In this document: positions 4,410-18,088 of the stretch, one piece after another
How positions within the stretch are numbered: position 1 is the first letter of the stretch
Layout of the letters: each line of letters opens with the position of its first letter
Assembly: GCA_022360055.1 (NCBI GenBank)
Contig: JAKSDO010000096.1
Coordinates: 1-64,000 of the forward strand
Direction: 5' to 3'
From: Cytophagales bacterium
Lineage (GTDB): Bacteria > Bacteroidota > Bacteroidia > Cytophagales > Cyclobacteriaceae
DNA length: 64,000 nucleotides
The notes under the pieces: generated by a model
Seen by the model: the letters and a program-made list of their open reading frames with translations, nothing else
Database searches by the model: none
What the model was told of the DNA's origin: nothing
Position numbers and translations under genes: made by a program

Positions 4410-4535
4410 ATGAAACCGGTAGGACCGGAGCAAATTCAGGACACACACGTGTATAATTATATTGCTCTGTGTGTCGGCAACCTAAAAAAATATAAACATA
4501 TGAAAAGAAAAATTATTCACTTAATCCAAATATGA
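4410..4535 (+). repeat. Copy 1 of a 95-bp hairpin element with a 41-codon ORF
   Basis: Bases 4410-4505 match 17993-18088 at about 84 of 96 positions without gaps. A stem GACACACA (4440-4447) with TGTGTGTC (4468-4475) is perfect. The element opens with an ATG and reads as 41 codons (MKPVGPEQIQDTH...), ending TGA at 4533-4535. Of nine codons that differ between copies only one is synonymous, so protein-level conservation is not supported. A second ATG at 4500 starts MKRKIIHLIQI. It lies before the DUF350 gene. I read it as a mobile-like 5' leader cassette; a small peptide gene is the alternative. Confidence 0.55.
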
Positions 4536-4560: not shown

Positions 4561-5415
4561 ATGAATATGACATATATTGATGCCACCTTAACTACTGTTG
4601 TCTATCTCACCAGTAGTTTTGCATTATTTTTTATCGGCAAGTATTTATACCAACTATTCCATCGGGGATACAACGTCAAGGATGAACTGGTAGAAAAGGA
4701 TAATCTTGCTTTTGCCCTGGCGCACACCGGATATTTCATTGGTTTGATCTTGGCGATTGGAGGAGTGATGATGGGTGAAACAGCAGGATTGTTGATGGAC
4801 CTATTATATATCGGCGTCTATGGGATTGTCTCCCTTATCCTTTTAAACCTGTCGATCATGGTCAACGATAAAGTTATTTTAAGAAGATTTAGTGTCAGGA
4901 AGGAAATCTGTGAGGATCAGAATGAAGGCACAGGTTTACTGGAAGGCGCCAGCTCGATCGCTACCGGTTTAATCATTATGGGTTCTGTGTATGGAGAAGG
5001 CGGGGGCATTGATACCGTATTGATTTACTGGGTGATTGGTCAGATTCTGTTGATCCTCACTGCATTTGTGTACAATTGGATTACACCATTTGATGTGCAT
5101 GAGCACGTAGAAAAGGATAATGTGGCGGTGGGTGTGGCCATGGCTGGTGCGATCATTGCCATTGGAAACCTGGTTCGACACGGATTGATGCACGATTTTG
5201 AAAATTGGTGGATTACGGCCGAGTATATCGCCATAGATGCCGGAATTGGGCTGATCTTTTTACCGATCGCCCGCTTTATCGCGGATAAGATTTTGTTGCC
5301 CGGAAGAAATTTAACCGATGAGTTGATCAATCAGGATAAACCAAATATTGGTGCTGGCGTAATTGAAGCTTTTGCCTATATTGGCGGATCGGTACTTATT
5401 TGCTGGAGTTTGTGA
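4561..5415 (+). CDS. Integral membrane protein with two DUF350 repeats
   Basis: 284 residues with about eight hydrophobic segments, arranged as two similar halves. The first half carries NVKDELVEKDNLAFALAHTG and the second FDVHEHVEKDNVAVGVAMAG. Each is the conserved E-K-D-N-x-A-x-x-(L/V)A motif of DUF350, followed by TM helices. A third similar motif (DELINQDKPNIGAGVIEAFA) starts near residue 257. This is the yjfL-type partner of PspA and DUF4178 proteins; its biochemical activity is not known. It is separated from the gene before by 152 bp containing the hairpin element, so it may have its own leader. Confidence 0.88.
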   Translation: MNMTYIDATLTTVVYLTSSFALFFIGKYLYQLFHRGYNVKDELVEKDNLAFALAHTGYFIGLILAIGGVMMGETAGLLMDLLYIGVYGIVSLILLNLSIMVNDKVILRRFSVRKEICEDQNEGTGLLEGASSIATGLIIMGSVYGEGGGIDTVLIYWVIGQILLILTAFVYNWITPFDVHEHVEKDNVAVGVAMAGAIIAIGNLVRHGLMHDFENWWITAEYIAIDAGIGLIFLPIARFIADKILLPGRNLTDELINQDKPNIGAGVIEAFAYIGGSVLICWSL

Positions 5416-8016: not shown

Positions 8017-8883
8017 CTATTTCTCAATCTCAGCTTTTAGGCTCATATCCAGACTTTTTACCGAATGTGTAAGTGCTCCAATGGAAATATAATCAACTCC
8101 CGATTCCGCTATTTCCAAAATATTCTTTTCCGTAATTCCACCGGATGCTTCTGTTTTCATTTTCCCGTCGATCAACCCGACAGCTCTTTTTATTGTTGCG
8201 GCATCCATATTATCCAGCATCACAATGTCAGCGCCCCTGGTGACCAGCACTTCGGCTACTTCTTCAAGATTTCTGGTTTCAACCTCAATTTTCAAGCGCT
8301 TGCCCGTTTTATCCAAATACTCATTTGCAGAGGTTATCGCATTGGTAATTCCACCTGAATAGTCGATGTGATTGTCCTTGAGCATGATCATATCGTACAG
8401 AGCGAAGCGGTGATTGGCGCCTCCTCCAATAATTACGGCCCATTTTTCCAAAGGCCTTAGATTAGGCGTTGTCTTGCGGGTATCCAGAATCTTTGCGCCG
8501 GTATGTTCGATAAGTTCGCATAGATGATTCGTATAGGTGGCAATGCCACTCATCCGCTGCATGCAATTCAGCACAAGCCGTTCTGCTCCTAAAATCGACC
8601 TGACCTGACCCTTTACTTCAAAAGCGATCTCACCAACGCCAACTTTGTCACCGTCTTTTTTAAAGAAATCTATTGAAAGGAGCGGATCAATCTTTCCGAA
8701 AATTTCCGCGGCCAGCTCCAGTCCTGCAACGACGCCGCTTTCTTTTAGTTTCAGTTGTGCTTTCCCAAGCAATTCTGCCGGAATGGTTGATAATGAAGAG
8801 TGATCACCTTCACCGATATCTTCTTGAATAGCCTGATTAATGAAGCTATCCATATATTCTTTTGTAACGTAACTCGGTTTCAC
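8017..8883 (-). CDS. nadC: Nicotinate-nucleotide pyrophosphorylase (carboxylating)
   Basis: Quinolinate phosphoribosyltransferase of NAD biosynthesis: quinolinate plus PRPP gives nicotinate mononucleotide, CO2 and PPi. Clear family signatures are present: EDIGEGDHSS, ERLVLNCMQRMSGIAT, ILDTRKTTPNLRPLEKWAV, GGGANHRFALYDMIMLKDNH, IEVETRNLEE, IVMLDNM and EASGGITEKNI. I chose the GTG at 8883 (reads VKPSYVTKEYMDSF); an ATG at 8907 adds an unlikely MLIFYFCG, and an ATG at 8853 is also possible. It follows the DUF4783 gene by about 60 bp on the same strand, a pairing common in Bacteroidota. No other nad genes are in view. Confidence 0.95.
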   Translation of the reverse strand: MKPSYVTKEYMDSFINQAIQEDIGEGDHSSLSTIPAELLGKAQLKLKESGVVAGLELAAEIFGKIDPLLSIDFFKKDGDKVGVGEIAFEVKGQVRSILGAERLVLNCMQRMSGIATYTNHLCELIEHTGAKILDTRKTTPNLRPLEKWAVIIGGGANHRFALYDMIMLKDNHIDYSGGITNAITSANEYLDKTGKRLKIEVETRNLEEVAEVLVTRGADIVMLDNMDAATIKRAVGLIDGKMKTEASGGITEKNILEIAESGVDYISIGALTHSVKSLDMSLKAEIEK

Positions 8884-8946
8884 GCCGCAAAAATAGAAAA
8901 TGAGCAAAGAAAAAATATGATTGAGTGGAAAGAATAACCGGAAAAG

Positions 8947-9354
8947 TTACTCTCTGCTAAAATCTATCGAGTCAACAAGGTAATCTTCACCGAATTTCTT
9001 GATCAAAATCCAAACCCTAAATGAACCATCTTCAAAGGTATATTTTCCGATGACATAAGTTAAGCCTTGTTTTGAAGCTCCTTTATGAATGTACTGAAAA
9101 TCTGTCGGCGGGTATTTTTTGAAAAACTCCTTGAGTACCAATTCTGCCTGAGAGCGACTGTAATTTGATTTTTCTCCTTCAAAATTGAGTTCAACCATGG
9201 CGTTAAAATTTTTCACAAATTCCTTTGAACTCCCGGCTTTCAATGCAGCCCGCATATTATTGATGACTTCACTTTGCGCATAAGCTCCCTGAAAAAGCCC
9301 AAGGCTACATACAAAAGTACCAACAAAAAAATAATACCTAACTGATCTTTCCAT
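8947..9354 (-). CDS. DUF4783 secreted protein upstream of nadC
   Basis: 135 residues with a signal peptide (FFVGTFVCSLGLFQGAYAQS, cleavage near residue 27). The mature part is a small NTF2/SnoaL-like alpha+beta fold (VINNMRAALKAGSSKEFVKN; ELVLKEFFKKYPPTDFQYIH; WILIKKFGEDYLVDSIDFS), matching DUF4783. Members are typically encoded next to nadC in Bacteroidota; no function is established. Divergent from gpmA across 157 bp. Confidence 0.85.
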   Translation of the reverse strand: MERSVRYYFFVGTFVCSLGLFQGAYAQSEVINNMRAALKAGSSKEFVKNFNAMVELNFEGEKSNYSRSQAELVLKEFFKKYPPTDFQYIHKGASKQGLTYVIGKYTFEDGSFRVWILIKKFGEDYLVDSIDFSRE

Positions 9355-17992: not shown

Positions 17993-18088
17993 ATGAAACC
18001 GGCGTGGCCGGAGCAAATTCAGGACACACACGAGCATGATTATATTGCTCTGTGCGTCAGCAAACTAAAAAAATATAAACGGATGAAA
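17993..18088 (+). repeat. Copy 2 of the 95-bp hairpin element, 5' of the cupin gene
   Basis: Gapless match to 4410-4505 at about 88 percent. The outer stem GACACACA (18023-18030) with TGTGCGTC (18051-18058) has one A-C mismatch. An inner stem GAGCA (18032-18036) with TGCTC (18046-18050) is perfect. The element opens at an ATG and runs in frame into the cupin gene, which then starts at its own ATG at 18083. Similarity begins exactly at the ATG and stops just after the downstream gene's ATGAAA, so the element behaves like a leader module. Confidence 0.55.

Follow-up and report, generated by a model that had tools for sequence, protein, structure and literature searches.

Short bacterial repeats are normally intergenic and lie away from start codons. 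ERIC/RU, BOX, RUP and MITEs are intergenic, mobile and about 100 bp long, and they can be co-transcribed with their neighbours; to our knowledge, none of these small repeats inserts precisely at start codons. Rickettsia palindromic elements are small palindromic repeats that lie in frame within genes, where they can add residues. REP and REPIN sequences, which are mobilised by RAYT (TnpA-REP), are high-copy, short, palindromic and non-autonomous; they form mosaics of units and carry a conserved short sequence 5' of the hairpin foot. IS200/IS605 elements have subterminal hairpins at both ends and, as described in PMC6006769, are laid out as target, element, hairpin and identical end sequence.

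The repeat described here, from a genome of the Cyclobacteriaceae, shares with REP/REPIN the high copy number, the short, palindromic, non-autonomous make-up, the mosaics of units and the conserved short sequence 5' of a hairpin foot. It differs from them in its borders, which are fixed at ATGAAA, and in its 90-bp oriented units, which stand head to tail at start codons. A GTAG/GGAG (or CGTC) tag is missing, the sequence at the hairpin foot being ATGAAA in the consensus of both unit types (A and B), and no RAYT flanked by units turned up among the inspected Y1 loci, which comprise those of this genome and a part of those of its relatives. Size and mobility are like those of ERIC/RU, BOX, RUP and MITEs, but terminal inverted repeats are lacking; unlike the Rickettsia palindromic elements, the units do not keep their frames, and only 1 of 106 arrays lies inside a gene. 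A literature search found no description of such an element, which is not proof of its absence from print. It is a new family of a known broad kind in an unusual niche, and its members are probably non-autonomous mobile elements of about 90 bp that insert at ATGAAA (TTTCAT when read on the opposite strand) and keep the invaded gene translatable.

The window, i.e., the whole stretch of 64,000 nucleotides that was analysed, contains two copies with the following features.

4410..4499, plus strand: unit A, copy 1, 90 bp, ATGAAACCGG...AAACAT, with the right border ATGAAA at 4500
4416..4428, plus strand: hairpin 1 of copy 1, 5-bp stem and 3-nt loop, CCGGT-AGG-ACCGG (fold and covariation)
4440..4475, plus strand: hairpin 2 of copy 1, GACACACA...TGTGTGTC (fold; 87.1% paired; specific to the A type of this genome)
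4486..4499, plus strand: A-rich right end of copy 1, resembling a Bacteroidota initiation region (base composition; PMC6847099)
4500..4505, plus strand: right ATGAAA of copy 1, the target or junction hexamer (opens an 11-codon frame only)
17993..18082, plus strand: unit A, copy 2, 90 bp (sequence match to copy 1)
17999..18011, plus strand: hairpin 1 of copy 2, CCGGC-GTG-GCCGG (fold)
18023..18058, plus strand: hairpin 2 of copy 2 (fold)
18069..18082, plus strand: A-rich right end of copy 2, candidate translation initiation region (base composition; PMC6847099)
18083..18445, plus strand: cupin gene, 120 aa, beginning at its native start ATGAAAAACTATATC (orthologue alignment; Pfam Cupin_2)

The original prediction, which rested on these two copies, had described a gapless repeat of about 88 percent identity with mostly non-synonymous codon differences. 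Positions 4410–4505 and 17993–18088 indeed align without gaps and are identical at 84 of 96 bases, and 8 of the 9 differing codons are non-synonymous. The unit has a length of exactly 90 bp, and the terminal ATGAAA is common to the unit and the downstream sequence. Folding z-scores of the window copies range from -1.45 to -4.09. Of the two genes that the copies precede, the cupin gene has its native start (ATG at 18083) at the right ATGAAA of copy 2. Copy 1 does not lie at the start of the DUF350 gene, which begins at 4561, downstream of the ATGAAA at 4500 and its 11 codons. The longest cupin ORF, 150 aa from 17993, is the cupin gene extended through the element (17993–18082), and automatic annotation could thus yield a false N terminus of 30 residues. 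Orthologue alignments start at residues 27–30 of this ORF in five genomes of the same genus, a sixth being cut by a contig end.

To call the sequence duplicated was a great understatement, and a lack of other copies, named beforehand as a possible refutation, is contradicted by hundreds of them. A genome-wide search gave 231 matches to the core 24-mer CCGGAGCAAATTCAGGACACACAC at up to 3 mismatches (115 forward, 116 reverse) and 310 matches to a 27-bp left-end motif at up to 2 mismatches in the 7.55-Mb genome, with no match to either reversed pattern. The assembly consists of 300 contigs, several of which (C86, C179, C195) end inside arrays, so that copies are probably undercounted. Arrays were surveyed in 97 stretches (1.77 Mb), which were picked round known copies and whose densities are therefore not typical of the genome. 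The background was counted in these stretches too, and genes were called by a simple ORF rule. The survey yielded 204 units in 143 arrays. They belong to two related types, A (166 units, mostly 90 bp) and B (38 units, mostly 91 bp), which occur alone or head to tail, each junction consisting of one common ATGAAA. The arrays comprise 93 single A, 2 single B, 15 AA, 11 AB, 8 BA, 3 ABA, 2 each of AAA, ABB, BAA, AAB and BB, and 1 ABAB. In both types, ATGAAAC(A/C)GG is followed by hairpin 1, by GAG..AATT...ACAC... and by the A-rich end, ...AAAC(A/G)N, after which comes ATGAAA. The B unit at L099:9731–9821, one of the 38, is 91 bp long, has an MKQAMPEII... frame with an in-frame TGA and is interleaved with A units. 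A hybrid of A and B with its joint at the common GGCATG (L096, about 8842–9059 in reverse-strand coordinates, G000:C248) suggests recombination between the unit types. At L128:5763, an A-type right end lies directly 5' of a 574-codon ORF with no recognisable unit upstream, which is either a decayed unit or chance.

The left heptamer ATGAAAC is present in 105 of the 143 arrays and the right ATGAAA in 117; both ends are exactly ATGAAA in 91. Where one deviant right hexamer, ATGGAA, opens a gene, the orthologues start with ATGAAA (three species), ATGAAG or ATGGAT, so that the deviation may have arisen by later mutation. In the case of another, ATGAGA, there are only two distant orthologues (49–54% identity). 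This border evidence fits a shared core and a 6-bp target duplication equally well. In the first case, a tyrosine or serine recombinase would integrate a circular form through a 6-bp ATGAAA crossover core, and the arrays would be serial integrations resembling integron cassettes. Such a process agrees with a hexamer that is the same at all borders and junctions, with the interleaving of A and B, and with a left flank without target preference beyond the hexamer, except for the native initiation signal. Paired inverted core sites do not, however, accompany ATGAAA in both the A and the B consensus, and the two bases immediately 5' of the right ATGAAA are variable; we consider this process unlikely. 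In the second case, the element would be a MITE moved by a DDE transposase with duplication of a 6-bp target, ATGAAA, as the 91 arrays with both ends exact and the retained start codon would lead one to expect. However, the terminal inverted repeats of the consensus do not exceed 3 bp in A (CCG) and are absent from B, a fixed ATGAAA is an unusually strict target, and the 1.77 Mb contain no longer element bounded by these ends, which together make such a MITE improbable.

The original prediction also favoured an RNA or DNA element over a peptide, and the codon statistics bear this out. A peptide or N-terminal extension (MKPxxPEQIQDTH...) kept by selection could be proposed on the grounds that the 30-codon frame is open in 56 of the 138 A units with readable borders (33 of the 204 units, of both types, lacked readable borders and were left out of the frame analysis). 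Against this, mean variation at codon positions 1, 2 and 3 is 0.114, 0.089 and 0.110 in the 96 A units of exactly 90 bp, i.e., third positions show no excess. In the same units, synonymous differences number 263 versus 243 (sd 13) expected, and premature stops are in excess, with 78 versus 47 (sd 6) expected. The length is not a multiple of three in 42 of the 138 A units, and the 91-bp B unit contains an in-frame stop. The open frame runs into the gene in 20 of 84 start arrays, which is not more than the 10 of 22 among the other arrays. Codon-position variation, stops and indels thus reveal no codon-level purifying selection on the unit frame, the second possible refutation named beforehand, and the peptide or N-terminal cassette was rejected on these codon statistics as extremely improbable.

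The check for covariation came out differently for the two hairpins. Hairpin 1, with five pairs and a three-base loop, is paired in 95.8% of cells across 96 A units. At its closing pair, UA (40 of 95) alternates with CG (36), besides 4 UG and 15 unpaired; in B it reads CAGGC-CAT-GCCTG, which adds one more compensated pair. The alternating pairs of hairpin 1 may stem from few events inherited by many copies. Hairpin 2 is paired in 87.1% of cells, and its pairs have seldom changed on both sides. Over the structure as a whole, covariation scores 0.111 versus 0.092 (sd 0.004) in shuffles, but the pairs with two-sided changes (5 versus 4.9) and the pair types (21 versus 20.1) are no better than in shuffles. 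The GACACACA/TGTGTGTC hairpin, which the original prediction stressed, is restricted to the A type of this species and absent from units of the sister species. Judged by this comparison, it is not the family-defining part, because the sister-species units without it still have the hairpin on the left and the A-rich end on the right. Several of those units (L263, L267, L270, L273, L276 and L277, in G003 and G005) carry a further, CCCGCCTGCCGGCGAGGCAGG-like palindrome in the hairpin 1 loop, which looks like the insertion of another REP-like element.

Among 148 genomes of the family, the left-end motif exceeded the reversed control (at most 1 match) only in G000 (310), G001 (30), G003 (3) and G022 (7), and six other genomes had one match each. 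A search of 390 genomes of the order at up to 1 mismatch, a draw to which G001, G003 and G022 did not belong, returned the own genome only. A 22-bp pattern matched eight loci in GTDB contigs outside the own genome, all from Cytophagales/Cyclobacteriaceae or Bacteroidia MAGs, and had no match in viral contigs; a contig scan with a 38-base pattern gave no match either. By these searches, the element hardly seems to occur outside this genus of the Cyclobacteriaceae and a small number of relatives. Right-end matches with the left motif 60–140 bp upstream are followed by an ORF of at least 50 codons in 5 of 6 cases in G003, 7 of 10 in G005, 6 of 6 in G001 and 3 of 3 in G022; matches without the left motif (2 in G003, 1 in G005, 2 in G001, 9 in G022 and 1 in G006) were not counted, and those near edges were excluded. 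B-type units are the kind present in the more distant genome G022.

The right ATGAAA of an array is usually the native start codon of the gene. In 106 arrays, it opens an ORF of at least 100 codons 81 times, is noncoding 24 times and lies in a gene once, whereas the other ATGAAA sites of the same stretches comprise 265 starts, 354 noncoding and 2248 coding sites (start versus noncoding, odds ratio 4.5, p = 4e-11; matched ORF rule of 100 codons, 37 of 143 arrays dropped at edges or without a right ATGAAA). A looser definition places 88 of 126 arrays at starts; another 27 have short frames and 11 lack an ATG (17 arrays at edges were left out). The enrichment at starts is a mix of targeting and the purging of harmful insertions.

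In this phylum, adenines at -14 to -11, -6 and -3 promote initiation, according to PMC6847099. The left flank of gene-start arrays carries this native signal, with A in 55, 64 and 64% at -13 to -11, and none is seen in the left flank of 18 non-start arrays; the unit therefore separates the gene from its old initiation region. The right end of the units has A at -13 to -11 in 98–99% and at -6 to -4 in 95–96% of the 84 start arrays. The consensus of B contains the same two A-blocks. At position -3, however, the element has C rather than the favoured A. The right end thus apparently serves the gene as a built-in initiation region, as far as base composition can tell. It is an equally simple reading that the A-rich end may be kept as a recognition site of the mobilising enzyme and not for translation, because non-start copies keep its letters about as well as start copies.

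The suggestion of a mobile regulatory leader holds for mobility and is not supported for the regulatory part. If the element altered the expression of the following genes and start copies were kept by selection to the benefit of the host, one could understand the enrichment at start codons, the hairpins and the tandem arrays, which occupy 33 of 84 start sites and 3 of 22 others. An adenosine-kinase-like gene (MKKVLGMGNALVD) with units in three species points the same way, but the make-up of its arrays differs (L099, ABAB; L271, AA; L291, A), and it may be either a hot spot or a site of repeated turnover. The genes behind the arrays are of many unrelated kinds. At the two genes checked, sister species lack the element: the cupin orthologues have the same ATGAAA start, and those of a ferredoxin-like gene start with ATGAAA in G002, G003 and G006, ATGAAG in G004 and ATGGAT in G010. 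As the type and number of units differ at shared genes and an Rfam scan of the window at gathering cut-offs gave 0 matches, a host-beneficial leader is quite improbable.

Under the preferred reading of a non-autonomous element inserting at ATGAAA, a recombinase supplied in trans would insert the unit at this hexamer. The unit would bring or recreate ATGAAA at its far end, whereupon the next copy could insert beside it and tandem arrays could grow. Insertions at start codons would be tolerated because the right end would stand in for the displaced initiation region. The most speculative step is an HUH/Y1-like enzyme acting on the minus strand, and it is in the class of enzyme that the explanation is weakest. 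It is proposed because the minus-strand order of target, element, hairpin and identical end sequence matches the IS200/IS605 layout described in PMC6006769. A fixed sequence flanks one end, as a target would, and a fixed final sequence closes the other, both being TTTCAT on the minus strand, and there are no terminal inverted repeats. Of the two hairpins, hairpin 1 is conserved and hairpin 2 is present only in the A type of this genome. In contrast to IS200/IS605, the element has a hexamer instead of a tetranucleotide, a hairpin directly at the end and no cognate Y1 gene or TnpA among the loci read. The orientation of arrays shows no bias against the gene background (78:41 versus 190:84, p = 0.48), and thus gives no hint of the strand preference that IS200/IS605 elements should show; there is no replication-strand bias either.

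A Y1/RAYT mobiliser was rejected after inspection of Y1 loci. With unit profiles and/or a degenerate left-end pattern, no unit was detected near the four Y1_Tnp loci of this genome or near 48 further ones, a part of those in relatives (28 + 20, some overlapping). A generic scan for ATGAAA plus hairpin in the first 32 Y1 loci gave 13 chance-like matches among 577 ATGAAA-like sites, and G015 bears the element, yet has no Y1 match. Two RAYT-like Y1 genes (L090 and L091, G000:C265 and C59) lie among palindromes of their own (GTCTTAGCGAGACGCTAAGAC; CTGTCGGATAT...ATCCGACAG), which are unrelated to the element. A long autonomous element was likewise rejected for the 1.77 Mb, where 7 of 343 end-motif matches fall outside recognised units and none pairs into a longer source element.

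The element occupies a most sensitive site of a gene, its start codon, and the price for this is apparently the initiation region that it brings along. Its copies are natural experiments on translation initiation without Shine–Dalgarno sequences in Bacteroidota, and they pose the puzzle of which enzyme recognises ATGAAA/TTTCAT. They are also a warning for gene calling, in which proteins may receive a false MKPxxPEQIQDTH start. A more far-reaching idea, to which we give only tentative credence, is that insertion is directed to translation start sites and not merely to the hexamer, for example via single-stranded or transcribed DNA at promoters or via mRNA, and that the element's own ribosome-entry signal keeps the invaded genes expressed. 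If true, this would be a bacterial transposable element specific for start codons that avoids harm in a new way.
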